From positions 1,550,001 through 1,614,000 of the forward strand of contig JACZZP010000011.1 in assembly GCA_015183035.1 (NCBI GenBank): DNA of 64,000 nt, read 5' to 3'. Positions 5,850 through 38,455 of the stretch are shown piece by piece. Made by a program: the position numbers and the translations under genes. The notes beneath the pieces are model-generated. The model saw nothing but the letters and a program-made list of their open reading frames with translations. It was not told the origin of the DNA and made no database searches. Source of the stretch: Meloidogyne chitwoodi. Its lineage: Eukaryota > Nematoda > Chromadorea > Rhabditida > Meloidogynidae. Every line of letters starts with the position of its first letter. Position 1 is the first letter of the stretch.

Positions 5850-6868
5850 ATTTTTAGATTTATTCTTTTTATTTTCTCATTTTTTAATTTAAAAAAAAAA
5901 TATTTTTTTCTTTTTATTTAATTATTTTTTTACAAATTAATTAATTAACCTCTACATACCCTTCCATCAATTATTGTTTTTCTTTTATTTAATAAATTTA
6001 TATTTTATTAAAATTAATTTTAGAAAAATTAAAAAAATAATAATAAATATTATTTAAATTAAATATATTTTAAATATAATATTATTTAATAGAAAATTAA
6101 ATTAAATTAAATTTAAAAAATAAAAATAATTAAAATATAGGTAAAATAACTTCTTTCCCCTTCACTCCCAGGAAATTAAAAATTCATCCAATCCATCTTT
6201 ATTTTTTTTAAATTTTATTTCTTATATAAAACCATCGCAATAAACATTACTTACTTACTTATTCCCCCAAAAGTCAAATAGCGGCATCTGACCCAAATAT
6301 TTATTTATTTATTTTTGTGTTCAGCGTTAAAATCCATTTTTATTTTTTAAATAAAATAAAATATAAATGAATTTCTTAATAATTTTTAAAAAGAGATTAT
6401 TTAATTAATTAATTAATTATTTATATTTAATTTTTTAAATATTTTAATTTTTTAAAAATAAACATCAAAATTAGCTTTAAGAAAAAGATTAAATAATTTT
6501 TTAATAAATTATTTATTTATTTAATTTATTTAATAAAACCTCAAAAATAGAGCCCTTTTTAGAAGAAAAAAAAATAAAAATAAATAAAAGACCCAGGGCT
6601 TTATTTTAGAAAAATATATTTTTATATTTTTGTTTAAAGTTTTAGTGTTTTAATAATTAATTATTTTAATATAAATAATAAAATCCCCTTCTTTTAATTA
6701 AATAAAACTCTTTTTCTTACTCCCAATTTAAGTCTTTTTTAAAATTAATTAAAATAAATTAGATAATTTAAAAGATTAAATAATTAATTAATTAATTATT
6801 ATTTTTATTAATTTTATTTTTTTAGAATAAATAAATTAATTTGGCCAATTAATTAATTTAAAAAGAAA
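1301..6868. other. 5.5 kb of extremely A/T-rich gene-free sequence
   Basis: Almost pure A/T with runs of TTTATTTA, AATTAATT and long poly-A/poly-T. Small simple repeats include TTAC units near 6247-6260 and TTTA units near 5820-5850. I see no open frame longer than noise, no tRNA-like B box and no convincing inverted terminal repeats. The stretch just upstream of 6869 should hold the promoter of the next gene; a TTTTTTTAG near 6820 could be a spliced-leader acceptor, but this is weak. Confidence 0.7.
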
Positions 6869-15574: not shown

Positions 15575-18500
15575 TCAAAGTGATTTCCATTCTTCATTTC
15601 GCTTCTGCAATAACTTAAATTTAAAAAAAATAAAAAGTAACAAAGTTTAAATAATTATACAAATAAAATTGTAATCGTTAAAAATAAACAAACATCTTTT
15701 TCAAGATCTCCTTCCAAATACTCCAAAAAATGTACTGGATCAAAAATTTTAGCATTATTAATTTGATAGATAATATTACAAAACACTTCACATGCAATCA
15801 AAAAGTCATACACATGATGTAAATTACAATAATTATTGTAGCTGTTTGAGTGTGCCCTGAAATATAAATGAAATTTTATTAAATAAAAAATAAAGCTTTT
15901 AGATAATACAAAGGTAACTTTTTTCATGAAAGTGCTAAATGCTTTTCCAATGGAAGGGTTATAGAGTAATTGTTTTTTGGAGACTAACCAGTAGAGTAAA
16001 AGTATTCTAACAATAAGGCGACTTTTTTAAGTTGAGATTTGCATTATTAGGTTTTGAAAATTTTAAAAACGAGGTATTTTATATTGAAAATAAAAAATTA
16101 CGCTTGTAAAGTATCCCATTTAGATATAAGTTTTTGTGCAAGATCTTCATCAGTGCTCAAACAAACACATTTGAGATAGTATGCAATCTCATTTGTAATT
16201 CGATGTGACTTAGGATCTAGATCAAATTGAAGCATAAAATTTTTGATTTGAAGACATCCTGCGTGCCAAGCATCGTCAGACGCCATTTCACCGTTTTGTT
16301 TTTCAACATGATAAACTCCAGAATCCAAATATTGCTGAACAGTAGTAGGAGAATTCTTTCTAATTAAAACATGTCGCCTAAGTTTAACTTGTTTTACCTA
16401 GAAAAAATAGAAAAGTGAGTAAAGTCTATGAAACAAAAGTTGAGTCACAAATCTGAAAATTTCCCCATTTATCAAAATTAATGTGACCTTTTTTGTAAAA
16501 ATCGTAATTATTTGAAAAACAAAATTTTGGAAAATATTTTAAAACAATTATGCATAAAATAAGAATAAAATTACCGTTCTGTCCTCTTCAACTTCAAAAG
16601 TTTTAGTTTCCAATTCAAAATCATTTCTAAAAATTTGTTTGACCAAATATTTAAAGAGAATGTCAAACCTTTTATCCTCAGGAATCAGATTCATCACTAA
16701 CTTTATCTGTTGATCAACAGACAATCCATTAAACTGAGGATCCGTAATAGTAATTTTTGTACCTAAATTAGGGTATAAAATTAAAAATATATATTAAAAT
16801 TTTACATTCTTTGACATCCATAAATTTTTCTTTTAAGACTTTAATAAAATCCAAACTCGAAGATCCAGATTGTGAACCATTAATTAGTTTACGCTTTCTT
16901 TTATTTAAATTCGTAACTTTATGGAAGACTAGCATAGACATTTCAAAACCTAAAAAATTATTGAAAGACTAAAAAATAAAAAATTTTTAACCTTTAATCA
17001 CAGTATTAGAGGTACACAATTCCTGACATTCAACAAAACCAACATCATTAATTAAATAATCTTTAAATTGATTAGGTTTAAATTTAATATTCTCGTAAGT
17101 CTCAAGCATGTCTGGCTAAAAAAAGAAAAATTTAATATTTTATAATAAAAGTAATAGACTATTTTTTTGCTGCTTTGTGATATTTTGACCAATCCTGAAT
17201 TTCAAGTAGTAGACGACCTCCTAAATTAATATTAAAATAAATAAATTTTATAAAATGCACGTGAAGATTTTTGAGGGAAGAATAAAATTATTACTTTTAA
17301 AATAAAAATTTGAGTTAAAAATTGTAAAATTTATGTGAATTTACTCTTTTTCCAAAGTTTTTTACAAAAGTTATCAAATTCATTTTCTTTTATAACTTAT
17401 CATGTCATGCTTAGAAAAATGTTTGGACATCTAATGGATAGAATCAGAGAACAACATCGAAACATAACCGACTCCACCATGAAACACTATGTATTCCATT
17501 TTTTATTCGCATATAATTTTTTTAAGCATATGGAAATTAAGAGCAACAAAAAAAATCCGCGCAACTTTTTTCCACATTTTAAACCTTTTTTATGCCTTCA
17601 AAATAAATTCTTTTCATCTATTTTCATAATAGTTTCTAAGAAAAGTTACGCAAACTTTTGATCTTGCAATAAAGGAAAGAAAACCCTAAAAAATTAACTC
17701 AGCAACTCAATTTTATTTTTTATGGATTAAAAAAGTAAATTAAAAAAACCTTGCTTTAAATGTTTCCAAATTTTCTTAAAAAATCGTTTAATTCCTTCAT
17801 CTCCCCAATTTAAATGTATCCATTTTGAAATACTTAAAGCCAAAATTATATCATATTCTTCCTGTATCATTTCAAGATCTTCATCTGATTCAAGTACATA
17901 ATTTTCATGAGAAAACCTTACATTATATTCTTTTTTTGATGCTGAGAACTTTCCGATAATCTGGAAAAAAATTCTTTAATAGTTAAAAATAAATTGTAGA
18001 ATTCGAAGGCACATCAGATGAATAAAAAAATTTATTAATAAGAAAATTTGCGGATATAATTTGCGGACTTTTGTCGCCAGAGTAGAAAATTACAGCCTTA
18101 AAAATCTTAATTTTCAAACCATTTTGGGCTATTTATGGATTGATCGATTTTGTAGTGAATTATAAGAAATACATTTATTAAAAAATAGGAAAATAAAAAA
18201 AGCTAAAGAACAAAATTGCAATAATTAAATATTAACTACTCGTATTAAACGTTTAAAAAACAAAAAAGGACTGGATATATTATGTAGGTGTATAATGAGT
18301 GAGAACAATGAAACTAAATTGCTTTCGATACGTAAAATGTTAGATACTTTAAAAATAAACCTTTTGTCCGTTATCAAAACCAAAATAATGTTTAATATTT
18401 TTTTTAGCAATATCAATAAGATTATCATCAATATCAATACCCAAAATAAGAGAAGGGCTTAACTTCTTTGCAATTACCAAAGTTAAATGCCCTACATTAC

Positions 18501-18799
18501 AACCAATATCAAGAATTCTTTTATTAGTAAACCATTCTTTTGGTAATAAATCAAGACGCCTAAAAAATTATTTTAAAAAAATAAAATAAAACTAACGGAT
18601 CATAAAGTAATCCTTTTTCTATAGAATAACGATTAAAATTTCCATAACGAAAACGTTTATTTCTAAATAAAATTAATTTAAATTAAATTAATTTAAATTA
18701 AATTAAAAAAAACCTCTTCTTTTTCGTTGAAGTTAAACTAGTTGAAGCATAAGGAGAGGAAAGACCAGATTCGGACGAAGAAGAACACTCCTCACTCAT
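15575..18799 (-). CDS. Bin3/MePCE-type RNA 5' cap methyltransferase with a novel C-terminal module
   Basis: Exons, minus strand: 18799-18714, 18662-18597, 18559-18361, 17960-17750, 17220-about 17160, 17115-16992, 16949-16806, 16762-16575, 16397-16102, 15856-15694, 15613-15575. The N-terminal half is a Bin3 methyltransferase: [11 protein letters not shown]-binding [13 protein letters not shown], acidic GIDID, the family hallmark [12 protein letters not shown], then [11 protein letters not shown] and [12 protein letters not shown]. MePCE/BCDIN3 enzymes methylate the 5' phosphate of 7SK-like or other small RNAs. About 250 further residues follow in frame; this extension is shared with genes at 23624 and 36573. 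Key parts are [31 protein letters not shown] and AAHSNSYNN. The exon 5/6 join is off by one base: in a 7-A run near 17162-17168 one extra A would restore the frame. This is either an assembly error or a real lesion. All later exons are in phase. Confidence 0.75.
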
Positions 18800-20137
18800 T
18801 TTGTGAAGTGTTTTTTTAAACTAGTGAACAAAAAAATTAATCAATAAAAATTAAAAAAGATAAATGTAATTGTTAAAAACAAATAGTAAAAAAAATTATT
18901 TTCAATAAAAATTAAAACATTTATTTATATAACAACAAACGAATGCATTAATTAACAAAACTGAGCATCTTTTTTTATTTTAAAGCTTTTAAAACAAGAA
19001 TAACCCAATAATCTCTAAGATTATACCCTCTTCCTTCTTCTTTGAATTATGATGATTAAAATTTAATTTTAAATTAATAAAAATAATTTTAAGCTATTCC
19101 AATTTTCAATAATAAGTTTGAGAAACCAAAACTTATTTCTTGTGATTAAAAACCAAAATTCAATTAATAAAAGCATTAATTTATATAATTTTTAATTAAA
19201 AAAATTTTTTTTATAAGTATAAAAATTAAAAAACATTTTTAAAAGCATTATTTTTGCATACATTTTTAAAAAACCCAACAATAATAAAACAAAAAAAATG
19301 AGAGCATATAAAAATCTTTAATGTCATTAGAATTAAATAAAAAGCTGATTCGAAGAGGCGGCTTTTTACCAAGCAGCAAATAGGTAATTGAAAAATAAAA
19401 TTACCAAAGTTAGAAAATTGATGAAAATTATATTAATTAAAATAATCACATATTCAAACTGTACAATCAACAAATGTTCATCTACTTTTTGTACTGCTTG
19501 AAATTGTAGAATATTTTTAATTTACTAAAAAGTGACAAAAATTAATTTTTGATGAAAAGACAATCAGTACAAAAGAAAATTTTTGATTATTTTCTAAACA
19601 AGTATTTTTAGTTATTTAATATAATTTTACTTTTGGAATAAAAATTTCCTATATCATTGGTAAAAAAAGTAGCTATAATAATATAAAATTTTGTATAAGC
19701 AAAAGAGAAATGTGAGAGTGAAAGAACATAATTAAATGATTGCATAATAACAAAGAATGTCTACAAATATTTTTAAATAATTTTTTAAATTAATTTTTAT
19801 TAATTAAAAATTATAATTTTTTAGAGACATTCTTAGTAAAATAAAATATTTAAAGTCAATTTAGGTAGAAAAACAATTATTTTTATTTAAATGCATTATA
19901 TTTTGTAAAAATACACAAAGTTAACATATATTTATATGATCAAAACAACTTAACAAAAAACTGGTCGGTAAAGAAGAGATGCATTTTTTTAATTTTGGGA
20001 AGAAAATGAGGTCGTTGAAAGCGTTCTTTTAATATATTTTAATTTAACATATTTTAAATAATTTAAAAAAGAACACTTTAAATTAGTCAATTAAATATTT
20101 TACGGATAAAACAGCATATTTATACATTTTGTTTTTT
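18800..20137. other. Spacer between the methyltransferase start and the G alpha 3' end
   Basis: No coding exon recognised. Holds a partial copy of the 10040 hairpin repeat near 19474-19503 and A/T sequence. The divergent promoter of the minus-strand methyltransferase should lie just above 18800. Confidence 0.5.
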
Positions 20138-22613
<2,476 letters not shown>

Positions 22614-23179
22614 AATTGAGGGCGAAAACAAAAATTAAATATAAAACAAGGCAAAAAAGTGTTTGCAGAAAATCTAAAATTATAAAAATGGTTTATAAAA
22701 TAAATTTGATTAAAATATTGAAAAATCACAACAAGCAGAAAAAGATAAATATCAGCAAAAAACAAACAAAAATTTTGCAAATAAAAATTATGGCAAATCC
22801 CACATTGTCGCGGGCAAGTTTGTCGCGAGACGACTTTGTCTTAAAATTTTTAATATAAAGTTTTAAGTCTGAGTCGGATCGGCTGGATTTTTCCGGATTC
22901 CTGATCCTTGGTATTCCCGCTTTTGCTTCTTTGGGGATGGTATTCAGTTTTGGCATTTGTTCTTTAGCTAATATTAATGCATGGTTTATTTTTTTAAAAC
23001 TTTTTAATTTTTTTATAAAGGTTTTATGGATATTTGAACACTACTCAGCCGAACACTTTATTTTTAATCATTTGGAAATGGCTGGCGAACCTTTATTTGA
23101 AAACGATAAAGACGATAAATTGCAGCCAAAGAAACCAAAATTAATACAATATTGTTTATTAAACATTTCATTTTTGCAG
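22614..23179. other. Region upstream of G alpha, with unassigned coding-like stretch
   Basis: Contains a short GC-richer patch (22800-22935) with repeated TGTCGCG and GGATC motifs that I cannot assign. From about 23013 to 23150 an open plus-strand frame reads as charged, protein-like sequence (AEHFIFNHLEMAGEPLFEND, then DKLQPKKPK). It may be another relic exon of the duplicated zone that begins here. No firm gene call. Confidence 0.35.
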
Positions 23180-23400
23180 GAGATTGTTTCTGTCAACTGA
23201 TCACTCTAACATAAGTGTTGCCTCTGAGCGGCTTGAGGTTTTTTTATAATAAACTTGGAAATCATTTAAAATGATTTTAAGGTTCGTGCGTCTGCGCGTG
23301 CTGGACTTCGAGAATTGCATGACAAAGGATTGATAAAAGTTGTAGTGAAGCACGGCTCAGTTGGTGTATACCCGCGCTATCAAAGCGGAAAAAACAGAAC
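23180..23400 (+). pseudogene. Relic of ribosomal protein eS25 gene (rps-25), copy A
   Basis: After an intact acceptor (TTTTTGCAG), the exon reads as eS25 E-I-V-S-V-N-L-I-T, then is broken by an insertion/frameshift near 23205-23215. S-E-R-L-E resumes and an intron follows. The last exon (from 23282) reads VRASARAGLRELHDKGLIKV and further eS25-like residues, but runs on past the normal end. The 5' exon is missing. Matches copy B at 33699-34160, with shared downstream non-coding sequence. Confidence 0.75.
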
Positions 23401-23623
23401 TGATTGCAACTCAGTTTTGTTATTTAATGCGTTCATTTATTTGTTGATAAATATAAAATGTTTCGGTTTTTTTTAATGTAAATGTTTCAGTTTCAACCTT
23501 TGTTAATTTTTTAATTTCTTTCATCTTAACCTTCAAAAAAAAAACGCTTGAAATCTTGTGATTGATTTTTATTTTTACCTTACAGTTTACAAACATTTAA
23601 TATTAAAAGCACTGTGTTTAAAA

Positions 23624-25315
23624 ATGAGCACTGTTTATGTTGGTAATCTTTCGGCTCGTGCGTCAGAGCGTGACATTAAAGAATTCTTTAGAGAGTTTGG
23701 TCAGATTAGCAGCATTTCTCTCAAAATTAATTATTGTTTTGTGGTATTCATTTACCTTATGGTTATTCTAATTTAAAATTTAGAATTTTTGTGACCCGGC
23801 AGCTGCTGAGAACGCTATTTCCGCCAAAAATGGATCTGTTCTTTGTGGACAACGTGTAAATGTTAAAGTTCCTCATCGATCGTATCCTGGTGGTGATCAA
23901 AATTATCAACTCGGAGAACAAATTGCTGGTTATAGCGGTAGCGGAGCAATTCGTCAAGTAGCGTAAGTATCATTTTTATTCAATTCAAATTATTCATCTT
24001 GACTTATTAATTTACATTGTTTCCAGTTATGATCCTTTAATTCAATCTCGCGATCAAAACTTACCTGACAAAGATCGTATACTGAATCGTTTAGTCGAAC
24101 ATAGTTTTTCTCAGTATATGTTAGAAGGTTTTTTTTAATTTTATTTTTTAAAATTATTTTTAGGACCGAAATTAAAATTAACAATATATGATTCTCAATT
24201 CAATGCAATATCAGTTAAAAAACAGAGGGACATGATTATGGATATTTTGCCGATGGATGTTAAGTATGTTTCTTTTATATTTTTTAACTAATAACTTAAA
24301 TCTAGAGAGAATTTAATCATCGAAACAAAACGTATTCCAACCACAGCAGACAACAGTAATTTTTTTTATTAATTAAGATTTATATTTTGTTAATTTGCTA
24401 TAATTTTTCAAATTTTCGATATTATTGAAAAATAATCTTTTATGCAAATTGGGTCGAACCCTAAGCGTATAAATTACTAAAAAGTAAAGGACAAATGATT
24501 AACCTCAGATATTTTTCATATAAATTAATTTGTTATAAACATGAAATCCATTGTTTTTATTTTTGAATCAATTATTTCCAGTAAATATTTTTAGATTCGA
24601 CTGGTATCTTTAAAAAACAACATTAGAGTTGGCCAGAATCTTCCTGAATCTCCGCAAAGCTTTATGGATAGTGCGGTTTCGAACTTTGAGGATGGACGGG
24701 GTGCTATTGCCTCTGAACTTTGTTGGGCTGCAGCATCTCTGCAATTGCGTTATTTGTTGTTGGCCGAAAATATCGAAGTGAATAATCTTGATATGAAAAA
24801 AGTCGTGGTATATTATCTGAGAAGTATCCTTGGCGGAAGGATGGCCACCCAACTCAAAAACAGCTGGAAAGATTTGGAACGGTTTCATTTTTATATTAAA
24901 TTTACTTGAAAGCTTAAATTTTAATTTTTCGATTTTGCTCAATTAGATTTTATTAATTTTTATTATAATCAAATATGATTAAATTTGATATTTTTTAACT
25001 TTAGTGGTGCCCTCGCTAATTTCTACGATGGTGGGAGCGATGATCTGTTTATTGTTTTTGATTATCTGACTGCTGCGAGAGATTTCTGCAACATTATTTT
25101 TTCTGTAAAGGACAAAAATCTATTCAACCGCATTTCTTTTCTTAAATGGCTTTCTCGTGTGTATTCGGAAGAGGTTCTTATTTTGTATTAAATTTTTATG
25201 TTTTTTTATAGTTAGGAATTATTTAAATTTCTATAAAATTATATTTTAGTATTTTGATTGTTTTGATGGTACATGGAAGCAAGTGAACCCTGCGCCTAGA
25301 CATTTTCCGGTATAA
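23624..25315 (+). CDS. SR-type RRM protein fused to the shared C-terminal module (possibly frameshifted)
   Basis: Exons: 23624-23743, 23784-23962, 24027-24127, 24164-24263, 24306-24355, 24595-24881, 25005-25173, 25250-25315. The first two exons are one RRM of the SR splicing-factor type: VYVGNLSARASERDIKEFF, RNP1-like INYCFVNFCD, then LCGQRVNVKVPHR. The rest aligns part by part with the module at 15575 and 36573: LKLTIYDSQFNAIS, ILPMDVK, AIASELCWAAASLQLRYLL, ALANFYDGGSDD and a last exon with D-G-T-W-K-Q. Phases agree except at the 24355/24595 junction, which is one base out and makes the canonical splice run into a stop. The upstream sequence matches 33990-34368, so this is half of a segmental duplication. 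It may be a recently damaged gene or there may be an unseen splice choice. Confidence 0.6.
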
Positions 25316-25515
25316 TAAATGGTGATATGAATGAGAATGATGCAATATATAAAAATTATATCTTTTTTGTTATTTTCAAATATTTCAAACATTTTTAATT
25401 CGAGATAGCAGATTATAAATAAATAAATGATTCTACAATTCTTTTTTTATTCGATTTTATTTTTATTAAATTATAACTTTGTTTTTAATTTTAAAATATT
25501 TTTGATTCTTTTTAA
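25316..25515. other. Spacer in the duplicated zone
   Basis: A/T-rich sequence without coding signal between the module gene and the UTP6 relic. Confidence 0.5.
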
Positions 25516-25680
25516 ATGGCAGTTTGTAGAAAAATCATTAGAAGAATTGATTCCAGTCTTTAAACAGCTTATATTGGTTTAAATATTTTCTCCAGAAGAA
25601 GTCTGTGAATTTATAAAGGATTGCCGTAATTTTGAATACAAACTGTGAACAGGTTTTTATTCTTTTTGGTTATTTTATTT
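25516..25680 (+). pseudogene. Relic of the first exon of UTP6 (SSU processome), copy A
   Basis: Reads F-V-E-K-S-L-E-E-L-I-P-V-F-K-Q-L, then SPEEVCEFIKDCRNFEYKL, the N-terminal pattern of the U3 snoRNP protein UTP6. It is frameshifted directly after ATGGCAG and has an in-frame stop between the two stretches. Copy B is at 38227-38360. Identification rests on memory of the UTP6 N-terminus. Confidence 0.55.
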
Positions 25681-26095
25681 ATTCAGACCTTGAAAGTTAG
25701 TATTGAATTATTTTAACTTTTTATTTTAGTCATATGTTTCTTTATGTTTGTAAAAGAAATCTCTTTTTTAAATAGCGCGTATAATTAAAAGACTTACTCG
25801 TTTGCATATTCTTTCTTTTTCATAGTTTCTTTTTATTTCACTGATCTCCATCTGGCTTTTTTAATAAATGTTTCAAACTTTTTTGTAATATTTTTATTAA
25901 TTTGTTGATTCTTATTTAATTTTATTTTCTCGTTTAAATATTAAAAAAAAATTTTTTGATTTAATAAATATTGATTAAAAATGAATGAAATTAAGAAGCA
26001 ACAAAACTTCAAAGAAAATCATTTATAAAGTTTTTCTAATGGCAAGAAAAAAATTTTTCATCTCAAAGAAATTTTCTTCCTAATTATTTGGTTAG

Positions 26096-26290
26096 AGGAA
26101 AAGCTGATCCAATAATTGTTGGTGGAAATTTACTTGGTGTAGTAACAATGTGGTCACCAAATAGTCAAAAACCTTTAATTGAAATTTTTGCACATAAAGG
26201 TCCAATTCTTGGAATTGATATGGATCAGACTGGACATTATATGGCAACAAGTGGATTGGATAATAAATTATGTATTTGGGACTTGAGAAA
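26096..26290 (+). pseudogene. Orphan WD-repeat exon of WDR46/UTP7
   Basis: Follows a TTGGTTAG acceptor-like site. Reads VGGNLLGVVTMWSPNSQKPL, then FAHKGPILGIDMDQTGHYMA and NKLCIWDLR, the penultimate WD repeats of the ribosome-biogenesis protein WDR46 (UTP7). No neighbouring WDR46 exon is found on either side. The next conserved block of the same protein is at 34369-34574, beyond intact gex-3. It is therefore a gene fragment, not an exon of gex-3. Confidence 0.65.
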
Positions 26291-26506
26291 TAGTTTTAAT
26301 GAATTGTTGTTTATTCTTCTCTTATTGAATTATAAATTTTGTTAACATTTTTGATTTATCTAAAATGAAAAAAAAATATGCAAAATTTTATTTATAAAAG
26401 TTTATAAGTTTATGAATCACGGCCTCATTTTTATTTTTTGTCTTAATTTGCAAATTTTTATCATAAATTTTTTATGAAAAAGTTTTAATAGTAAATTCAC
26501 AGAAAA

Positions 26507-29500
26507 ATGAGTTATAAAATGGTTAACGACTCTTCACAGCTCAAATTTGCCGAGAAACTTGTAATTCTTAATGATCGTGCACTTGGAATGTTAACAAGAA
26601 TTTATAATATGGTTTGGAATAAATTAATATATTAAAATTAAATTTAGAACAAATTAATTTTTTTTTAATTAAATTATAATAAAATAAACAGAATTTAGTT
26701 TTTAAAATAAAATATTCAGAAAAAAGCATGCGCTGACCCAAAGTTGCGGCCTCAATTTCTTACTGACAAAACACTTGAAACGGCTATTACTTATGTTGTT
26801 AAACGCTTTCCTATTATTGATATAAAACGAAATTCAGTTTGTTAATAAATGTAAAATATTAAATTAATTTATTTTAATTAAATTTAAAGACAGTTTTTTC
26901 CTCTATTAATGAAATGAAAGCAAATATTATCAAAAAATTATCTTTATATTATTATACATTTGTTGATTTGTTGGAATTGAAGGATGCTATTTTGCAGCTT
27001 TTTACTGCAATGGATGCTAATCAATGTCGTTTAAATATTGTTAGTTTATTTTTTTTTATAAAAATTGTTTTTTAATTAAGGTTGAAACTTTTATAAAATA
27101 AATTAATAAAATAATTTTATTTGTCAAACAATTTTTCCAAATTATTATTTTTTATAAAAAATATATTTGTAAATACTTAGAATCAAAATCTCGACTTAAC
27201 AACAAGCTTTTTAAATTTGTTAGTCAATTTTTGTTCTCTAATGATTCTCCTTTCACGTATAGAAGATCGTAAAGCAGTTTTAGGCCTTTATGCTGCTGCT
27301 TATGATATATTACATACAGGCAGTGAAACTTCATTTCCAAGGCTTGGTCAAATGATTGTAGATTATGAACAGCCTTTAAAAAAACTTTCTGAAGATTTGG
27401 GCCTTTCATATAGAGTTTGGAATTTAATTTATTTAATCCTTTAATTAAACGATGATTTTTTGAAAATATTTTTAAAAAGTTATAAAGATTTCAATTTTAA
27501 GGTAATCGGTTCTGCTCTAGAATCTTTAAAAGAAACATATTTTAGAAGAAATATTTCTGCCGAACAACAACGAGATTCATCAATGATTTCACTTACTGCA
27601 AATCCTCGACATATGTTATATGCTGCACAGACTAATACGGTTACATTGATAATAAAAGATTTTGTAGATTTTTTAAATGTATACACAAAATACTTTTCCT
27701 TTCCAATCCTCTAATATTTTATAATAAAAAAAGACAACGAGTATTATTTAAAAGTTGTCATAAATTTCCTCTTAATTTTTTGTTCTGATTTAAAAAATTG
27801 GTTTTTATTTTTTTAATTTAAAAATTAATTTTAGATAGCCTGTGAATATATGTCTCTTGACACAATGGATCGATGGATTATATGTTAGTTAAAAAATAAT
27901 TTCTAAATAATTTTATAAAAATTATTTAAAGTTGGAATATCTTTTTGTCATCGTCTCCTTTCTGATCATTCACTACTTCCACTCTTTCAGCGGGCAATGC
28001 AACATTCATTAGTTGTTCGTCTATTCAGAGATGAATCTATTTTTACATTTTTAATGATTTCAACAGTTTTGGAACCTTTAAAAGCACAAAGCAAACTTTT
28101 AAATGAATTAAAGGAATTTAATAATAATGCTATTCATACTTGGTACTTAAAAATAATTTATTTCATAAACTTTTTAGTGGTCATTTGCATGCACACAGAC
28201 GGCATTTTTTACGAATGGCATTAAAAGAATTATATTTATTGCTTGTAGATGAACCTGGACTTTTTGGCCCAAAAATTCTTTTTGTTTGGATGGGCCTATC
28301 TATGGCTAGAGATGAAATTCAATGGCTACTCCGTCATTATGATGTTTGGCAACAACTTTTATCACAATATTCTCCAGCAAATAAAAAGGCATTACAAAAA
28401 AGTGGTCTTCAAAATATTGTTGTAGACAAGTTAGAATTTTTAATTTTTTTGAAAATTTATTAATTTTTTTTTCAGATTTCTTCCAGAATTGCTTTATTAT
28501 TTAACGGAACTTCGAAATTTAGTTTTGAAAAATTCTGATTTAATATCTAATTATTATATTCAATATATTGCTGGTTATGATGCTCCTTTACTTGCTGAAC
28601 TTGCGCAGCATTTTAATGGTGGAAATGGATTATCAGAGTATGAACAATTGTTAATTCATTCTTGTATTAATTCAATGTCTAATATTTCTAGTTTGTTTTT
28701 TTAATAATACAAAGCTAAAAGCTCTATAATTATTATAGATGGAATAGATTCTCGTGGTGTTCATTTAGATTGGTTTCGTTTTCAATCATTAACAAGTATT
28801 GGACGTTCAACTTTTAAACTTCAAGTTCATGCAAATTTTGCTGTTGCTATGAATACTGCACTTTTTCATTTAAAACATATTGGGAATGGTTTGGATGAAT
28901 TAATAAGAGAAACTAGTGATTTAAGCATTTATTGGTATAAAATACTTTTTTGTTTTTAATAAAAGATTGTCTTTATTAAAATTATTATAAATATTATTTA
29001 ATTTTATACAGTTTCTATCCTCGAATTTTTGACTTACATTTACGCAATTGTTTGGATTTTCCTCTTCAATCACGTTATTCCATTACATTTGCTCACATTT
29101 GTACTCATTTTAATAGTTCATTACATGAATTATGTCCTGAAGAAAATGATTCTATTATTGAAAAAGGTATTATTAAAAATTAATATATATTTTTTTAACT
29201 TTTATTTGTTTTTATGACTCAATTCTTGCAACATTGTACTAGAGGAGATTGTCAGAAAAACTATTGAAATTTTTTCTAAAGTATGTGCTGATTGCCAACA
29301 ACTTGTTTTAAGCACAGAACCTAGAGCTTGTGCAAATATGTTTGCTTTAGAATTTCAAGGTTTTATTTAAATTTATTTTTTATTTAAATTTAATATTTTT
29401 TGGGCAACATTATTTTTAACCCTTTCATTTAATTTTCAATTTAAATTTAATATCTATATTATTTTTAAATTTTAACAAATTTTAAAGGCAAAAATGAAAT

Positions 29501-32071
29501 GAAAATGCCTGGATTTGAAAGTATTCGTCAATATGGACAGTCAATTTCCTCGAGTGATTCAAATTGTCTTTACCTTGGAGAATTATGTCAATCTCTTACA
29601 AATACAAAAGAATTAAATATTTTAAGACATATTTTTGTTCCTCGAGAATTTCTTTTTCAACAATTAGAAAAGCATTTAACTATTAGCCTTTTACGTTATT
29701 TAAATCCAAATAATGAGCAACAACAACAATTAGAATGTCCAAGAAGACCTTCTGAAATGTTATCATTTTTAAGTGCTCAACTGAATGCTTTACAACAATT
29801 AGATATTTTTTGTTAGTTTAATTTTATTTAAAAACAATTTTATTTGTTATAGATAATTTTGACTTAGCTCGTCTTTTTAATGACACTCTTTTACAACAAT
29901 CACAGAGAGCAGATGCTCAAGGGAATGAAACTCTTGCAGAAATATATTCAAAATGGTTAGAAGATTATTTAATTTTAATAGCTTTTTTTATGTTTAAACT
30001 TTAAATAAAATTAATTTAAATTTAATATTTTAAAAGGTATTTGGAAGTTTTGCTTAGAAAAGCAAGTACATACCATTTTCTATATTCTGAACATATGCAG
30101 TCTTTTGTTAATAATCCTAATTTGGAAGTCTCTGGGATTGCACATGGTAATAACTCTTCGACACAAATATTCCGTGCTGAAAGATTTACTGATCCTAGAG
30201 GTTATTATTACATTACTAAAAAAATTAATCAAAATTTTCTTTAGAACTTCGTTATCTAGCACAACTTATTGGTCCATTTGGAATTAAATTAATTGAAGAA
30301 AAACTTGTTTGGCATATTGCAAGTCAAATTACTGAACTTTTCAAAATTGTTCGAGAAAATAATGAACAATTACATATTGCAAGAGTTAATTATGACAAAC
30401 CTGAAAAACTTAAAGAGGTTTTCACTTTCAAATTTGTTTTTTTTTTATTATTTTGGTAAATTCTTTGATATTTTAAAAATTTGGATCTTTAAAAAATTCA
30501 TTTTTCTCCTCTTTTTCGATGATATTCTTGTAAATAATAATTTTTATATAATTATAAAAAGTTTTTTTTAGATTGTTACTTCATTAGGTAGTTCACTTGA
30601 AATTCAAAGTGGAAACAGCCACAAAAATGAAAAGCGCAATACGACCACAACTCTTGGAATTTCTCCTTTGGATTCAATGCTTCAACGTGTTATTGTAATT
30701 TTTTTTCAAAATTAATTTAAAATTTTTTTTAAATAAATTTAAAATTTCCTCAATTTTATTTTAGATTATTGGTGAAATTTGTGCTTTTCGTGATATGTTA
30801 TTTATAGCATTAAATGATGTTTTAAAACAAAGAGCACCTTTTCTTGTTCGTTCTTTGGCATCTTTAATTAATTCTCCTTTGGATGAAATGCAAAAAATTG
30901 TAAAAAAATTAATAAAATTTTAATTTATTTTTTTTAATTTTAGAATATTGGTGAAGCTTGTGCTGCTTCTGGGTTTAAATTAGATGTTGATTTAGCTTTG
31001 GCAAATGCTATAAAACAGCAGGCAAATACAAATGGATTAGATGATCCAAATGAGGTTTCTAAAAAATATTTAATTTAAATTTTTAATTTTTTTAGCACTA
31101 CAAAATTTCTTGTCTGCTTATTGTTTTTATTGCAATTTCTTTGCCCCATTTGGCACTTAACCCTCAGTCTTTCTTTAGAGCATCACTTTCTGGTATTTTT
31201 GAAAATATTATTTAATATAATTAATTTAATTTTAATATTAGTCTCAAAGAATAATTCTCACACTCTCCCTCTCGCTGTTAATACAATTACTGGAGCTCTA
31301 TTTTTTCTACATCAACGTGGAGATACTGCGGAAAGGATGCATGAATTTTTGGCGGTATTTTTTACAAAAAAAGAATTATTTTTTTATAAACTTTAATAGT
31401 TAGAGTTGTTAAAATATAATTTTGGTATTTCAGTCTGTGGTTAAGTGGATTTGTTCTTTGTTGAGAAATGAGTAATGTTGGTTTTAGTATAGGTTTCCAA
31501 TGACTTGTTGCTTACAATCTAGTGGCGTATAGGAACCAGTCAGGACATTTCAAAGTCTTGGATGGGCCGAAAATCGCCTAAAATATAGAAGAGTTATGGT
31601 CGCATTGAAGAAAATTAAATTCTATTAGTGCATTTACCCAACTCTTGTACAAATATATTTGTTTTTTAACTTTTTGTTCAAAAATTTCAAAAAAAATTTA
31701 CAGATTTGAACTTAAAACCTATATACCTTTTTAAGTTTATTATTTTAATAAATATTTTTTCAGTTAGCTTCTAGTAGTTTACTTCAAAACATTAATGGAA
31801 GTAATAATCCAACATCTTCTGATAAAATTAAAGGAGGACAACGACAACAATTTCAATCTTCTGTATATTTATTATTGGATCAATTGGCTAGAAGTTCTCC
31901 ATGGTTAAATTATGGTTTATTAGAAAAAGTAAAAAAATATTTTTTTTTTAATTTTTTAAATCTCTTTTTCAGTGTTTTCCTTTTGCTTTAATTCGTTCTA
32001 CACTTTTACATTGTCATAAGCGTGAGAATGATGAAACTAGTGGAAATAAAAAACAGACAATAAAAAACTGA
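26507..32071 (+). CDS. gex-3: GEX-3 / NCKAP1 (Nap1, HEM family), WAVE regulatory complex subunit
   Basis: Twenty-three exons sum to an intact 1181-aa frame (NCKAP1 is about 1130 aa). It starts [18 protein letters not shown], then [16 protein letters not shown], close to the family N-terminus. Other conserved stretches include [60 protein letters not shown] and [11 protein letters not shown]. First and last exons are 26507-26611 and 31973-32071; most introns are 35-80 bp, the longest (31355-31763) about 410 bp. The protein is entirely helical and, with CYFIP/GEX-2, WAVE, ABI and HSPC300, relays Rac signals to Arp2/3 actin assembly in morphogenesis. The family is usually essential and single-copy, so its survival inside a zone full of pseudogene fragments is worth noting. 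Confidence 0.93.
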
Positions 32072-32185
32072 AAAAAGGTTAGACAAAAAGTGATTCTTAT
32101 AAATTTATTTTGTTAGAACTTAAATTTTTGATTTAATTATAATTTCTAACGTTTTTTATTATAATCATTTACTCCAAAATTTATG

Positions 32186-32893
32186 TAATTACAAGTAGCA
32201 ATAACTTATAAATGGATGTGATATCAAAATAAATTTAATTCGGATTTTTAACTGTTTTTATTTTGATCTCCATATCCATACTTTTGACTTTCGTTTCTAT
32301 TGTTCTTGTGCCTATTTTCCATTTTTTCAATAATATTTTTTATATTTTTTGCCTTTTCTCCATTGAATCTTTTTGAAATTATTTTATTTTCTCAATTTCT
32401 ATGGCTCCCAGCTTTTTTAAAAAATTATTTATAAAATTCTTGCCATATTTTTATCTATTCACTTTTTGTATAATAGCTTAAAGTTATTATGATTCTTTAT
32501 ATTATGTACTACTTTAATGCATTTAAATTATTCAAATAAAATTTAAAAAATAATTTATAGAATTAATTATGTTTTAAATTAATCACTAAAATATTTAAGA
32601 ATATTTTTTTAGATATGAATTATTTTTTTAGATAAAATGATTAGAACACAACCTAAAAATATAGTTCGAGGTCAAAAAAGAAGTTTTAGCAATGAACAAT
32701 CAACTTCAGATGAAACAAGATTGCATGAATCTCAAAATGATGAAATTGATGTTGAAAAAAATGGAGACACACAACCACAAATTGTACAATTTGAAACAGG
32801 AAAAACAATTAGAGGAAATTTGTGTCTTTGGCATGAAGGTTTTTTTTTAATTTATGAAAATAGAAGAGAGAATTTATCATTTATAAGTTCCTA
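32186..32893 (+). repeat. Segmental duplicate (copy A) with orphan first exon of the FLYWCH/MULE gene
   Basis: About 700 bp nearly identical to 38456-39215, except for about 110 bp present only in the second copy (about 38521-38625). Contains an exon at 32637-32840 starting M-I-R-T-Q-P-K-N that is almost identical to the first exon of the gene at 39001. It ends at the same E-G donor but has no FLYWCH exon downstream, so it is an orphan. The few differences imply recent duplication or gene conversion. Confidence 0.8.
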
Positions 32894-33171
32894 ATAATTC
32901 CCCTTGTAGAAGAGAGAAATTTCTCTCATTGACCATTTTGTCTTTTTCATACTTGACCATTTTCCAACTTCTACGCTGCTGACCATTTCTCATTCTCTCT
33001 TTTTTTCTTTCCATCGTACCTCACCGTTGCTTAACTTACCAGATTGAATTAGCACATAGACACTTTTCATCTGTTTGCTATGTCCGCTCTTTCAACGGAA
33101 TGTAAGCACTGTGTGTTAATCTTTGTGAAAATTCGATTTTTTCGTGATTATGTTTTTTTAATTATTTTTTA
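32894..33171. other. Spacer upstream of the first Merlin-like element
   Basis: A pyrimidine-rich stretch (TCTCTCATTGACCATTTT, TGACCATTTTCC) near 32920-32990, otherwise nothing assignable. The octamer ATTTTTTA at 33164-33171 is the target duplication of the next element. Confidence 0.5.
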
Positions 33172-33612
33172 GGTAATCTTCACCAATCTGGGCGCCACCC
33201 CAAATAATCGCACCGGGATAGTAAAAACGTGTTTTTAGGGGTTATCGAGGTCGCTGATTAAGAATCTGATATCAGTTTTTTCTTATCACTAATCCTTATC
33301 ATTTTATCACTAATTTTAAAAATCACAGATTTTATCATGAATATTTTCCAAATTACTCAACTTATTAATACACAAGAATCTGCTATTCGATTTTTACAAC
33401 AACGTAACATTTTACGGTCTGTACCCCCACTATGTTCATCATGTAATCAGCAAATGAACGTAAATCGTGATAAAATCTGTGATTTTAACAATTAGTGATA
33501 AGAAAAAACTGATATCAGATTCGTAATCAGCGACCTCGATAACCCCTAAAAACACGTTTTTACTATCCCGGTGCGATTATTTGGGGTGGCGCCCAGATTG
33601 GTGAAGATTACC
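33172..33612. mobile_element. Merlin-like foldback element with transposase N-terminal remnant
   Basis: Begins GGTAATCTTCACC and ends with its reverse complement; inverted arms extend about 120 bp with few mismatches. It is flanked by exact ATTTTTTA duplications at 33164-33171 and 33613-33620. An internal plus-strand ORF (33337-33495, ending NN-stop) reads NTQESAIRFLQQRNILRSV, then C-S-S-C and a Met. This is the start of Merlin/IS1016-family transposases: the A-I-x-F-L-Q-x-R-G-x-L motif followed by a zinc-ribbon CxxC. Merlin elements have 5'-GG termini and 8-9 bp duplications. The DDE catalytic part is absent, so it is non-autonomous. Confidence 0.8.
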
Positions 33613-33698
33613 ATTTTTTATTTGTCTTAATTTGTTTATATTATTATTTAGATTTATTTATCTTAATTTTTTATTATTTAGAAAAAAGTTATTAAGAT

Positions 33699-34160
33699 AT
33701 GCCACCAAAAACATCTATTTCCGGATGAGGTGGAAAGGCAAAGAAGAAGAGTGTTCGAAAGGAAAGGTTCGTGACAAATTGCAAAACATGGTTCTTTTTG
33801 ATTCGTCTACATATGAAAAGCTTCATAAGGTTTTTATTTTTATAAAACTGAGATTGACAAGTTTGGTTACACTGCTTATTTTAATGTTTTATTTGAAAAT
33901 CGAGATTGGAATTTTAAATAAAGACAGTTTACTAGAAACTGAAATCACTACAATATTGTCTTTCAATTTTTCTTTTTTGCATTCTGTCAAACTAATCACT
34001 CCAAGCGTTGTATCTGAGCGGCTTAAGGTTTTTTCTATAATAAACTTGGAATTCATTTAAAAAAACATTAAGGTTCGTGCGTCTGGCGCGTGCTGGACTT
34101 CGAGAATTGCATGACAAAGGATTGATAAAAGTTTTAGCGAATCACTGCGCTCAGTTGGTT
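33699..34160 (+). pseudogene. Pseudogene of ribosomal protein eS25 (rps-25), copy B
   Basis: Exon 1 (33699-33829) begins M-P-P-K and contains GGKAKKK, but has a premature TGA near 33726 and a small insertion before SKGKVRDKLQNMVLFD and YEKLHK. Exon 2 keeps VKLITPSVVSERLK but has lost the splice acceptor through a 9-bp deletion relative to copy A. Exon 3 begins VRAS and is frameshifted. eS25 is an essential small-subunit protein, so the functional gene must be elsewhere. Introns are retained, so this is a DNA-level duplicate, not a retrocopy. Confidence 0.85.
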
Positions 34161-34368
34161 TAGACCCGCGCTTCCAAAGCAAAGGAAGCAGAAGTGTCTG
34201 GAACTCAATTTTGTTAATTAATGATTCATTTATTTGTTGATAAATATATAAATGTTTTTGACGTTTTTTTACTAAATGTTTTAATCTTTGTTATTTTTTA
34301 AATTTCATCTTAACATGAACGCTTGGGATCTTGTGGTTGATTTTATACCTTATAGTTTACAGTTTTAG

Positions 34369-34574
34369 ATCATTTAAAACGTTATGCACCATATTTAGTT
34401 CATAAATTTGTAGGAACAATTACAAATTTACAATTTTGTCCATATGAAGATGTTTTGGGTGTAGGACATACCTGTGGATTTGAAAGTCTTTTAATACCAG
34501 GAGCGGGACAGGCAAATTTTGATTCATTGCGTGCAAATCCATTTGAATCAAAACAGCAAAGAAAAGAACAATAA
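34369..34574 (+). pseudogene. Orphan C-terminal exon of WDR46/UTP7
   Basis: After a TTTTAG acceptor the frame reads [52 protein letters not shown] and stops at 34572-34574. This is the highly conserved C-terminal block of WDR46/UTP7, cut short before its usual basic tail. It is joined upstream to sequence homologous to the leader of the RRM gene at 23624, which marks a rearrangement junction near 34368. Confidence 0.7.
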
Positions 34575-34620
34575 TGTCGAACAAAAACTGGACTTTAAGA
34601 AGATTGTTTTGGAAGATACT

Positions 34621-36416
34621 GACCTAATGATAGAACAATTCTTTTGGGCTCTAGAACAGATGTTTCTAGATTAGCTAGTTGTGATGTTTGGTTTTTTGAC
34701 GGAACTTTTAAAAATGAATAATGCTCAACAATCTTTGTATCATCTTTGGGTATTATTTTTTAAACAATTCTTTGACTTTGTTCATTAAAGATTGTTCATG
34801 GTCGTTTTGGTCGAACATTTATTTTTCCCTTCATTTACGCATTAATTCCATAAAAAACTTGTGATTCATATATCAAATATTTGGAACTTTTGTTTGTTAA
34901 AGTTGAAGAAATAAATCCTGGTTTTCGTCCACAAACAATAATTATTGGGTACTTTTCCTTTATGGTTACAAAGTCCGCGAGTTTTTGTCTGCAAAAAATT
35001 TAATATTTTTCTCAAAAAGGATTATTTTAAAAAATATTTATGTCCATGAGCATAGTTTCCACGACTATTATAAAGATTATTTATAAATTTTTTGGTATAT
35101 AAAAGGTATTAAGTTTTTTGAATCTATAAAATTCTAATTTTAAAAAATGAGTTACGAAACCCATACAGCAAAATTTCTTCAAGATTGTGGAATTCTACAT
35201 AAGGAACGAGTTTGTTGTGGTAATAGAATGGTTCCGTTTGAGTAACTCATTTAAGAGTGAACCATAGCAGAAATTTTGTTAATCCAGAGGATGGTTCTCA
35301 CACTCAGAACACAGAGAGAACTTGGCGGACGGCAAAATGGCGGAATAAGAAGCAATTTGGAACACACCGACAAATGATTGACAGCTATTTATGCGAATTT
35401 TTATGGAGTTGATGATTTGATGATATTTTAGCAAAAATTGTTGATTTTATGCCTCCAAAATAAAAAATAAATATAAATTTTTTGCAGACAAAAACTTGCG
35501 GACTTTGTAACCATAAAGGAAAAGTACCAATTATTGAATTTGAAAATATTGAAGAACAAGCTTTAAGAGCTGCTTTCCCTTTTGTAATAATTCAAGGATT
35601 CTTTTTTCACTTTAAGGTTTTTTAAATTTTAGAAACTTTCTTAATATTTATAGGAATCAATATGGAAAAAAATTCAAGAACTTGGTTGGGAATTAAAATA
35701 TAAAGAAGAAGATGTCTTTAATAATTATCTGAAAATGTTTGTTTGTTTAACTTTTGTTGATCCAGGTTTATTTTTACTTTTATTTATCTAAAAATTTTCA
35801 GTATATATTCGTGCATATTTTCGTCAATTGGCTCAAATATTTCTTGAAGTATTTAGCAATGGTGATTCAGAAAGTTCATATTTTTCTTTTATTGATTATA
35901 TGGAAAATTGGGTTGTAAGAGATTTAATGCCACCAAGATATCCTTCAACTATTTGGAACAATAAAGTTATAACACTTGAACAACTGCCTAAAACTTCAAA
36001 TTCTGTTGAATCTTGACATAATACTTTTGCTGGAATATTTCTTAGGCATTCTTCATATCCTTACAATCTTGTTAGGGCACTTTTGGATAAACAGGTTTCT
36101 TTTTAATTGAATAGTAAATCAGTTTTTGGGAACATTTTGACGAGAGAATTGTTGTCCCGACAAAATGTTAATCTGATTTTGTCTGTGGCAAAGTACTTCT
36201 TACATGATTTAGACATTGAATTCTATTTAATTTCATTAAATTAAAGCTCGTTTTGATACAATTGCTATTCGTATCTCTGGTGCTGCAGTTCAAATGTTTA
36301 GTAGACCTGAATATAGACGTGACAATCAAAATCTTTTGAATATTTTGAGAAGCGTTGGTAGACCTAGAGATCCTATTGAATTTTTAACTGCTTGTTCCCA
36401 TTTTATTAATTTTTAA
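34621..36416 (+). pseudogene. Dead MULE transposase interrupted by a Merlin-like element
   Basis: Recognisable Mutator-like transposase pieces: SCDVWFFDGTFKN (first catalytic D in D-G-T-F), R-P-Q-T-I-I-I-G, then IEEQALRAAFPFVIIQGFFF (the FP-x-x-x-x-G-x-F-F-H region), DYMENWV and a C-terminal Arg-rich part. At least three in-frame stops occur (about 34720, 34850 and 36014, the last replacing the usual Trp in S-V-E-x-W-H-N). A 582-bp element splits the frame exactly between G and E-F-E. Confidence 0.8.
34948..35529. mobile_element. Merlin-like element nested in the MULE pseudogene
   Basis: Terminal inverted repeats of about 52 bp begin GGTACTTTTCCTTTATGG and include AAAGTCCGC(G/A)AG. Exact 8-bp target duplications AATTATTG lie at 34940-34947 and 35530-35537. 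The interior near 35150-35245 reads ETHTAKFLQDCGILHKERVC, the same transposase N-terminal motif as in the 33172 element, followed by C-G-N-R-M. Removing it restores continuity of the host MULE frame, so it is younger than the MULE insertion. Confidence 0.8.
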
Positions 36417-36572
36417 ATTTTTTTAATTCAGTTTAATGGTTGATTTTTTATATAAATATTTTCTTTAATTAATTGATTTTAAAATGTTTATTTTTCATTT
36501 TTATATTTTCACTTCATAATTTCACATAATGTTTATTTTAGAATTTTTGTTTACATTTATTTCAAAAACAAT

Positions 36573-37727
36573 ATGAGACTTTCGATTTTTGTAATGGCTA
36601 ATGGGGTTAAAAATATGGTTAGTTTTATTTTTTCAATAAATTGATTTGTGGAAATTCAATTTTAATTTTTTTAATGTTACAGATTGTCGATCACGAAATG
36701 ATTCGCAAATGTCTTAGTGGTTTTAATTCTGTTGACTTCGGAAGTAAAAATTTAATGATTTTAATTTTCATAATTTGTTTTAGAAACAAAAATAGTTATA
36801 AAAGATCCGACATTCCACGCTATGCCATACTTTAAGCAAGAAAAATTAGTATTGGAAAAGCTACCAAGCGATATCAGGTTTGTTTTTTAATTTTTGTGAT
36901 TAATTGAAAAACTAAAATTTCGAAATGAGATCGAGTTAGAATTGGTACCAATGGCGGATGAAGATGATAATACCGTTAATTTTTTTATATTTTTCTTATT
37001 TTAAATCTCGTTCAGATTAAATGCTTGGAACTTAAAGATATTAAAAATTTGGAGCTGGGAGATAAATTGCCTATTACTGCCCAGTGGCATCTCGACTATG
37101 CGGTGCATTTCCTAAAAAAAAAAGAGAGTGTCTTAGCAAGTGAAGCTGCTTGGAAGTCAGCGAGTTTAGTTCTACAGAACTTTCTTTTGTTTTATGGATA
37201 TATGTCAAAGAATCACTCAGTCAAATCCGACGTTGTATCTTCACTTGCATTTTTTTCCAAAGAAATTCTGAAAGACGAAGTGTTCTCAAAGAATATTGCA
37301 ACTTCATGGAGTGCTTTAGAGTAATATTTTAACTTAAAATATTTCAATTTTGATTAGATTTATTTTAAGCATTTATTCAATTGGATATGATTTTTAAATT
37401 TTATATTCTTTACAATTTTAGAGCATCGCACGCAAATTCGTATAATAATCAGTATTCATTAATTTTTGTCGTGAACTGGATACAACTTGCTGTGTCGTTT
37501 TCTCAATACATTGTACAAATCCACACTAGCAAACATTTCAAGAAGGAATACCTCGACAAATGGATGCAAAAAGGCTATAAAAAAAGGGTTATTATTTTTA
37601 ATATTTTTTACATTATCATTTGGCTATTTTAATTAATTTCAAATTTATGTTTAAATTTTAGTTGTGCGTTATGTATGAAGGTGAATGGACGGAAAGGCAA
37701 AAATTACCTAAGAACTTCAAATTTTGA
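36573..37727 (+). CDS. Stand-alone copy of the shared C-terminal module (261 aa)
   Basis: Seven exons with consistent phases: 36573-36617, 36683-36743, 36784-36881, 36930-36974, 37016-37320, 37422-37587, 37662-37727. No premature stop. Order of blocks: TKIVIKDPTFHAMPYFKQEK, L-P-S-D-I-R-F, an acidic linker ADEDDNT, ITAQWHLDYAVHFLKKKESV, LASEAAWKSASLVLQNFLLF, a helical middle, W-S-A-L-E-A-S-H-A-N-S-Y-N-N, and a final exon with E-G-E-W-T. Predicted mostly helical, with no signal peptide or membrane segment. Homologous part by part to the C-terminal halves of the genes at 15575 and 23624, with the same intron phases. The start is uncertain: the RRM of the paralogue is missing and may have been replaced when the MULE inserted upstream. 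Function unknown; a helical PaREP1/HEPN-like fold is my inference. Confidence 0.65.
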
Positions 37728-38226
37728 GAACAGTGAGTTAGAAGATAACGAAAAATATTCTTTTTTGTGTGCATTAGAAAAGTATGGGTTTAAATAATTA
37801 TTTTTCAAATATTTTTGTTGCTTCTATAATTTGTTCTTTCATTCGCCTATACAAAATTTTATATAATACCATTGCTCGAAATTTTTTTGTTCCAAAGAGT
37901 TAGACTTAATTAATATAATTTATATACTTTGATTGTTTTCTTTTACATTTTTTTTGTAAAAACCGCCTCCCAAATAAGATTTTTTTAGATCTCTAGACTT
38001 TAAAGTGTTTTACCAACAACTATATTCTACATTTTTTATTATTGTTGAGATTTTAAAAGCAAAATGCTTTTTTAAAAATGTTTTCAAATTTTTATAAAAA
38101 ATAAATTTGATAAATATATATAAATTTAAATAAATGTTTATCAACTCTGTTTTTATTCTAAAAATGTTTTTATTTAAACAAAATATTTTTTACAATTTAT
38201 TAAATAAATATTTTTGATTTTTTAGG
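37728..38226. other. Spacer in the duplicated zone
   Basis: A/T-rich sequence without coding signal; parts resemble 25320-25515 downstream of the paralogous module gene. Confidence 0.5.
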
Positions 38227-38360
38227 AATGATTGAATTTGTAGAAAAATCATTAGAAGAATTGCTTCCAGTCTTTGAACAGCTTAAATTGGTCTTAAGAG
38301 GAAGTCTGTGAATTTATAAAGGATTGTCATAATTTTGAATACAAACTTTTTAAACAGGTT
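38227..38360 (+). pseudogene. Relic of the first exon of UTP6, copy B
   Basis: Opens with a good ATG: M-I-E-F-V-E-K-S-L-E-E-L-L-P-V-F-E-Q-L-K-L-V, then a deletion shifts the frame to a TGA; the nucleotides of the E-F-I-K-D-C block still follow. Copy A (25516) keeps the deleted part but has lost the frame near its start. Each copy is broken at a different place, so they decayed independently after duplication. Confidence 0.55.
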
Positions 38361-38455
38361 TTTTCTTTTTGGTAATTTTGTACTCATTCCAGATGGTTCG
38401 ATTCCATCTCCCATCCATCATTTTTCCGCAACATACGAACACAATATTTATATAA

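Follow-up and report, generated by a model that had tools for sequence, protein, structure and literature searches.

A PaREP1-type HEPN module with RNA-related partner domains in Meloidogyne chitwoodi, and inverted exon-intron conservation in several of its copy pairs

The window analysed here, a stretch of 64,000 nucleotides (C3:1550001-1614000) of the 47.48-Mb Meloidogyne chitwoodi assembly (30 contigs; G+C 22-25%), contains three genes, designated A, B and C, which have in common a module of about 240 residues encoded by six exons. Exons 1 to 3 of this module are BolA-like and exons 4 to 6 encode a HEPN domain. The three gene models were built by hand from the sequence and comprise the following features (window positions).

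Gene A
16992-18799, minus strand: Bin3/MePCE part (Pfam Bin3 1.5e-36; paralogue alignment), exons 18714-18799, 18597-18662, 18361-18559, 17750-17960, 17160-17220 and 16992-17115
16806-16949, minus strand: fusion exon, a single exon with the Bin3 end, a linker and the first module helix
16669-16762, minus strand: module exon 2, BolA-like core with a stretch of 13 protein letters (not shown), read from the sequence
16575-16626, minus strand: module exon 3, BolA-like end, after a 42-base intron (16627-16668)
16102-16397, minus strand: module exon 4, first helices of the PaREP1-type HEPN domain
15694-15856, minus strand: module exon 5, HEPN end with H-x-N-x-Y
15575-15604, minus strand: module exon 6 and stop

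Gene B
23624-23962, plus strand: SR-type RRM, exons 23624-23743 and 23784-23962 (Pfam RRM_1 1.2e-14)
24027-24127, plus strand: linker and first module helix
24164-24263, plus strand: module exon 2, BolA-like
24306-24354, plus strand: module exon 3
24595-24881, plus strand: module exon 4, HEPN
25005-25173, plus strand: module exon 5, HEPN
25250-25315, plus strand: module exon 6 and stop

Gene C
36573-36743, plus strand: short leader exon (36573-36617) and first module helix exon (36683-36743)
36784-36877, plus strand: module exon 2, BolA-like
36923-36974, plus strand: module exon 3
37016-37320, plus strand: module exon 4, HEPN, 59-60% identical to copies 1909 and 1915
37422-37587, plus strand: module exon 5, HEPN
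37662-37727, plus strand: module exon 6 and stop

The initial annotation had proposed that segments of these three genes align in the same order. A full-length alignment bore this out, with B and C each 28% identical to A, and the motifs that had been listed are contained among its 29 invariant columns. The A row of that alignment still included 14 residues encoded by the 42-base intron, an extra in-frame intron of gene A that would be swallowed by one long exon. Exons 2 and 3 of gene A have lengths of 94 and 52, the same as those of gene C. The intron phases, also claimed to match, do so in A and C (1, 2, 0, 2, 0); gene B agrees save for its third, which cannot be judged in this hand-read model. 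When the central exon of gene A was compared with the 47.5-Mb genome in all six frames, B and C were recovered at E 1.1e-6 each, together with 11 other places at E<=1. Reciprocally, the gene C exon found A at 3.2e-6 and B at 9.9e-4, and the gene B exon found A at 1.7e-6 and C at 4.6e-4.

The module occurs in many more genes than these three. A consensus query of the genome returned at least 15 HEPN exons with E 2.1e-9 or better, and a weaker set of at least four lies on C9; the copy counts from these central-exon and consensus searches are lower bounds. Copies are labelled below by their kb position on C3 (copy 1899 is C3:1898726) unless C9 or C10 is given, and the exon ends of those outside the window were placed by eye from open frames.

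C3, ten HEPN exons: 1566, 1574, 1587, 1863, 1870, 1872, 1899, 1909, 1915 and 1947 kb
C10, five HEPN exons: 1420, 1426, 1436, 1542 and 1545 kb
C9, four more divergent HEPN exons: 512, 631, 1802 and 1838 kb

Exon 4 is free of stops in 15 of 15 copies. Searches of a 5.8-billion protein collection with gene C, with a 14-member HEPN alignment and with an exon of the genome's own BolA yielded no match, a result that says little about nematode relatives, and tblastn of the gene A exon against phages found none either. A single weak NCBIfam match was irrelevant, and weak PADLOC matches to Csx20 and DndD were judged to be noise.

By sequence, exons 4 to 6 form a PaREP1-type HEPN domain. A 14-copy consensus scored 26.7 bits against Pfam PaREP1 (PF05942; cut-off 24.4, E 5.6e-6, profile positions 8-113 of 115) and 24.1 against Pfam HEPN (cut-off 22, E 4.1e-5, positions 12-114 of 117), and none of nine reversed or shuffled consensus controls exceeded any Pfam cut-off. 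Two unrelated families that the consensus also matched (0.0045 and 0.0046) fell below their own cut-offs. Furthermore, hhalign against 28 archaeal PaREP1 sequences gave a score of 38.2 (probability 79, P 1.6e-5, 99 columns), the best of 40 block-shuffled alignments reaching 13.7, and the domain appears to be of archaeal ancestry. Single natural copies score weakly, under the Pfam PaREP1 cut-off; PaREP1 is nonetheless the best Pfam match for the sequences at C9:1838 kb (4.3e-4), C9:631 kb (0.0017) and C10:1426 kb (0.0012). The first of these (C9:1836539-1839652), with the best PaREP1 score among natural sequences, clusters with the archaeal sequences in a 19-row tree of weak resolution, in which 9 of 16 inner branches are open. 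The HEPN profile retrieved nothing from PDB beyond unrelated entries with E of at least 0.7.

The HEPN catalytic motif Rx4-6H is present in one of the 14 copies and absent from 13, and H-x-[NS]-x-[YF] is found in 12; in gene B and copy 1870 the histidine itself is lost. Since 13 copies lack Rx4-6H, we read the domain as a putative RNA-receptor adaptor rather than a ribonuclease. The RNA-linked adaptor role put forward in the initial annotation fits the HEPN identity.

The description of the module as new holds only in part, as PaREP1-type HEPN domains in Caenorhabditis appear in a 2013 survey (PMC3710099). There, Table 1 gives PaREP1/8 as lacking R with H conserved, and inactive nematode PaREP1-HEPN proteins are proposed to act as receptors of the RNAs that are targeted, and perhaps to protect the germline. 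Our search of the literature found no paper on HEPN in Meloidogyne. The module resembles the PaREP1/PaREP8-type proteins of PMC3710099 in its full-length HEPN profile, the missing R and mostly kept H, the nematode lineage-specific expansion and the fusions to RNA-related domains. It differs in belonging to another nematode, in the BolA-like segment that precedes HEPN in 8 of 15 copies, and in its partners, which are Bin3, RRM and CCHC here and a LAF-1/Vasa-like ATPase domain there. These observations indicate that nematode PaREP1-HEPN is not confined to Caenorhabditis.

The BolA-like nature of exons 1 to 3 has support but falls short of proof. An 8-copy profile had a single PDB match, RP812 (E 0.0061), which we take to be a BolA-type protein; an earlier 3-sequence profile had found it at 0.032 together with two unrelated entries. 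In hhalign, the core motif (strand, FxG, helix) was in register with both BolA genes of this genome (P 1.2e-4 and 8.3e-6). With 10 BolA sequences the score was 26.5, the highest of 60 shuffles being 17.1, and eight bacterial BolA sequences alone gave 22.5 (P 0.0027). Several observations weigh against a BolA assignment: Pfam did not find BolA above cut-off in the module, BLASTP gave no match, and the conserved histidine after FxG, an iron ligand in BolA, has given way to another residue in all 8 module copies, at a position where the genome's own BolA genes read QRH and KQH. Because of these three points the segment is named BolA-like and not filed as BolA (PF01722). It also differs from that family in the short stretch between first helix and core strand, and in preceding HEPN in all 8 copies that have it. 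The BolA fold is KH-like; a single-sequence model of 62 residues of the BolA-like part, including the 14 intron-coded ones, contained no strands and had a predicted template modelling score (pTM) of 0.38. In copy 1870, two open stretches, both like module exon 3, lie before the HEPN exon.

The statement of the initial annotation that the partners are RNA-related is, for most of them, supported by Pfam, which finds Bin3, RRMs and CCHC zinc knuckles on module-bearing genes. The N-terminal part of gene A matches the full Bin3 profile (positions 1-109 of 109, 1.5e-36) when the query is read across a frame slip. A Bin3 paralogue without the module lies 390 kb away (C3:1955849-1957957) and has exons and words in common with gene A (10 protein letters, not shown); 560 of 661 bases are alike across five exons (C3:1956017-1957605). 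A stop terminates this paralogue within the exon that in gene A runs on into the first module helix. The ratio of nonsynonymous to synonymous substitution (dN/dS) of the gene A Bin3 part is about 0.17-0.40, and this part looks to be under purifying selection. A third Bin3 occurs at C5:473830-474247.

An SR-type RRM is the partner in gene B and in copy 1863 (1.6e-16). The gene at C9:631 kb carries a different RRM (3.6e-10) some 200 bases before its HEPN exon; in that exon, C9:512 kb is 92% identical. In the region C9:629500-632613, the RRM exons and the PaREP1-like HEPN exon are followed by an SR-type RRM gene that is 62% identical to the gene B RRM over 42 residues; by this likeness it may be the source of the gene B partner. 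CCHC zinc knuckles stand in copy 1947 (7.7e-15) and, in a degenerate form below cut-off (0.0011), in copy 1872; no BolA-like part was seen in these two copies where CCHC stands. Tudor-SN-like nuclease exons (SNase 6.1e-7) lie upstream of copy 1872 and may belong to its gene. Gene C and copies 1870, 1899, 1909 and 1915 comprise the BolA-like part and the HEPN part, and nothing more than a short leader besides. No BolA-like exon was seen in the five C10 copies. At C10:1436, 1542 and 1545 kb there are short upstream frames such as MRFYST... and MCRLFST..., which by motif we presume to resemble mitochondrial leaders.

The initial annotation attributed the spread of the module to exon shuffling. 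The gene B junction lies at an intron and would be compatible with it. In contrast, gene A has no intron at the Bin3/module boundary, both sides being inside exon 16806-16949; this fits local fusion by deletion or read-through, not intron-mediated shuffling. Moreover, several copies lie in duplicated stretches. One of these, with RPS25 and the RRM, relates 23130-23879 to C3:1862076-1862801 at 78%, and another, with a MULE-like flank and the start of gene C, relates 35529-37002 to the 1909 and 1915 copies at 83%; 3' flanks are likewise duplicated among copies, and MULE, RPS25 and BING4 fragments lie near them. The flanks of gene C within the window are as follows.

35529-36541, plus strand: 5' flank, repeated beside copies 1899, 1909 and 1915, probably the end of a MULE-like transposase gene
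37812-38379, plus strand: 3' flank, repeated beside 1909, 1915 and partly 1899

The Pfam MULE match (1.2e-6) was obtained on the adjoining piece of the 1915 copy and not on the 35529-36541 stretch itself, and a piece of that stretch taken from the 1899 copy matched no Pfam family. Sequence from 25414 onward, behind gene B, is related to the 3' flank. Between gene B and copy 1863, 49 of 72 RRM residues are kept, compared with 17 of 63 in the BolA-like part and 38 of 143 in HEPN; therefore, the module changes much faster than its partner, or was swapped. Each of the three window genes bears one lesion, unexplained in this assembly: gene A slips by one frame at the end of exon 17160-17220, within a run of A; in gene B the junction of exon 24306-24354 to 24595 is one base out of phase; and the acceptor before exon 36923 of gene C is CG and not AG, whereas paralogue 1909 has AG.

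Several copy pairs display an inverted pattern of conservation. When gene C is aligned with copies 1909 and 1915, identity is 91-92% in the 5' flank, 87% in the 3' flank and 85-86% in the introns, but it lies at only 55-64% in each of the seven exons. The drop falls at splice sites; an intron of 45 bases, flanked by exons at 57-60%, is unchanged in 45 of 48 aligned columns. Among seven copy pairs picked for long shared stretches or alike flanks, six (C/1909, C/1915, the three among C10:1420, 1426 and 1436, and C10:1542/1545), which belong to three gene groups and are not independent, have exons at 55-58%, against 70-85% for the introns and 83-93% for the 3' sides. The 5' sides of these six pairs contain leader exons that are unannotated; they vary between 0.49 and 0.81 and are low in the C10 pairs too (0.49, 0.50, 0.62, 0.73). 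When the introns of five of the six pairs were realigned one by one, they were 69-84% identical, above all 20 shuffles of each (means 50-57%, highest 67%), and Fisher tests of exon against intron gave P 0.0015 to 2.7e-14. Where both copies encode one and the same amino acid, their third bases match in 41-50% of codons in the six older pairs, and the expectation from codon use, calculated for exons 4 and 5 of five pairs, is 41-47%; synonymous positions are therefore near chance, and introns are not. The ratio dN/dS between old module copies was unusable, dS being saturated or undefined.

To avoid choosing pairs by their result, exons 4 and 5 were compared with the intermediate intron in a wider set of 14 pairs. 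In eight (C/1909, the three C10:1420-1436 pairs, C10:1542/1545, 1872/1947, 1863/1899 and A/1947), the intron lay above all of 10 shuffles, and in every one of these the intron, at 60-84%, was more alike than the exons, at 49-59%. The higher A+T content of introns raises the identity expected by chance, so weaker cases, of which A/1947 is one (0.60, where the highest shuffle reached 0.51), weigh less. The inversion is not universal, as in the remaining six pairs (1870/C, 1870/1909, 1863/1870, 1899/1909, A/B and B/1863) the intron between exons 4 and 5 was no more alike than shuffles. With blastn, 1899 and 1909 matched in their flanks and not in the module. As a control, the Bin3 part of gene A and its paralogue follow the normal pattern, with exons at 0.85 and five introns at 0.84 (37 bases), 0.48, 0.46, 0.61 and 0.60. 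The recent pair 1909/1915 agrees at 682 of 708 exon bases, 401 of 410 intron bases and 500 of 500 and 498 of 498 bases at the sides. Between module exons 2 and 5 its differences number 26 in 612 exon bases and 9 in about 337 intron bases; as they occur together, this pair was dropped as support for exon-only change.

Inverted exon-intron conservation is, to our knowledge, otherwise known mainly from venom genes. Its occurrence in a family that looks intracellular and RNA-linked suggests that this family is under strong conflict or diversifies by an unusual process. Of the published cases that we found, the viperid three-finger toxin genes come closest; PMC2474615 describes segment switching (ASSET) in their exons and not in their introns. 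Both families have kept exon order, with introns over 85% alike and exon segments far lower. In the module, however, whole exons diverge instead of short segments, synonymous positions are near chance, and the genes look intracellular and RNA-linked.

We somewhat favour an account in which the BolA-like and PaREP1-type HEPN parts form a fast-diversifying RNA-binding adaptor, the product of a lineage-specific nematode expansion of an originally archaeal, RNA-associated domain. If expressed, the module would bind RNA, probably dimerise, and serve as a C-terminal receptor or adaptor able to supply new RNA targets or partners to the Bin3 cap methyltransferase, RRM or CCHC domain preceding it. New copies would arise by segmental duplication and local gene fusion, and the module coding sequence would diversify far faster than its surroundings, as in families driven by conflict, possibly in defence against transposon or viral RNA. 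Of this account, the HEPN identity by sequence, the copy number, the partners at DNA level, the lack of R and the inversion in several pairs are shown here; RNA binding, a role as adaptor and a setting in defence are inferred. The partners agree with the receptor proposal of PMC3710099. Fast change in the module and not in the partner fits a recognition role, and the repeated pairing with RNA-handling domains, including a cap methyltransferase, makes the RNA-receptor proposal testable.

An active HEPN ribonuclease using other residues, brought by its partner to target RNAs (capped small RNAs for Bin3, mRNA for RRM or CCHC), seems distinctly unlikely. The histidine is in the right place in 12 of 14 copies, and according to Table 1 of PMC3710099, some HEPN proteins in which D replaces H have another conserved H, which could play a part in activity; yet Rx4-6H is missing from 13 copies, PaREP1/8 are described there without R, and gene B and copy 1870 have lost even the histidine. 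It is likewise rather improbable that the copies are mainly selfish or decaying gene fragments, carried by MULE-like elements and tandem duplication, whose fusions are not expressed as proteins. The lesion in each window gene and the MULE, RPS25 and BING4 fragments would agree with such decay, but exon 4 is open throughout, six old pairs retain 44-48% of their amino acids at an exon DNA identity of 55-58%, the Bin3 part of gene A looks to be under purifying selection, and two copies preserve the order of RRM and then module. Decay also predicts that exons drift as fast as introns, not faster.

For the inversion itself, we hold ordinary diversifying selection on the protein, combined with gene conversion homogenising the introns and flanks of neighbours, to be the likeliest cause, at about an even chance. 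The copies are clustered with alike flanks, and in 1909/1915 the sides are identical while exons 2 to 5 and their introns differ together, as in a patch seemingly left out of conversion. Such conversion would nevertheless need very short tracts to account for the 45-base intron between diverged exons, and third bases agreeing near the codon-use expectation do not favour selection on the protein. A further candidate is an exon-directed diversification through spliced RNA, in which amino-acid and synonymous sites change together as introns and flanks stay alike. It might work by error-prone copy-back of cDNA into the locus, or by selection on mRNA sequence to escape small-RNA silencing. We give this process only a slim chance; if true, a defence-like gene family of a eukaryote would have an RNA-linked system for its diversification.

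Other features of the window were noted, mostly by eye. A fragment resembling ribosomal protein S25 lies near gene C (33605-34380) and is alike to stretches beside 1863 and 1915, the S25 gene itself being seemingly located at about 23.1-23.5 kb. Exons at 6857-8910 and 13959-15304 resemble PAN/apple-domain proteins and galectin, and those at 57163-58388 on the minus strand resemble the U1-70K snRNP protein.

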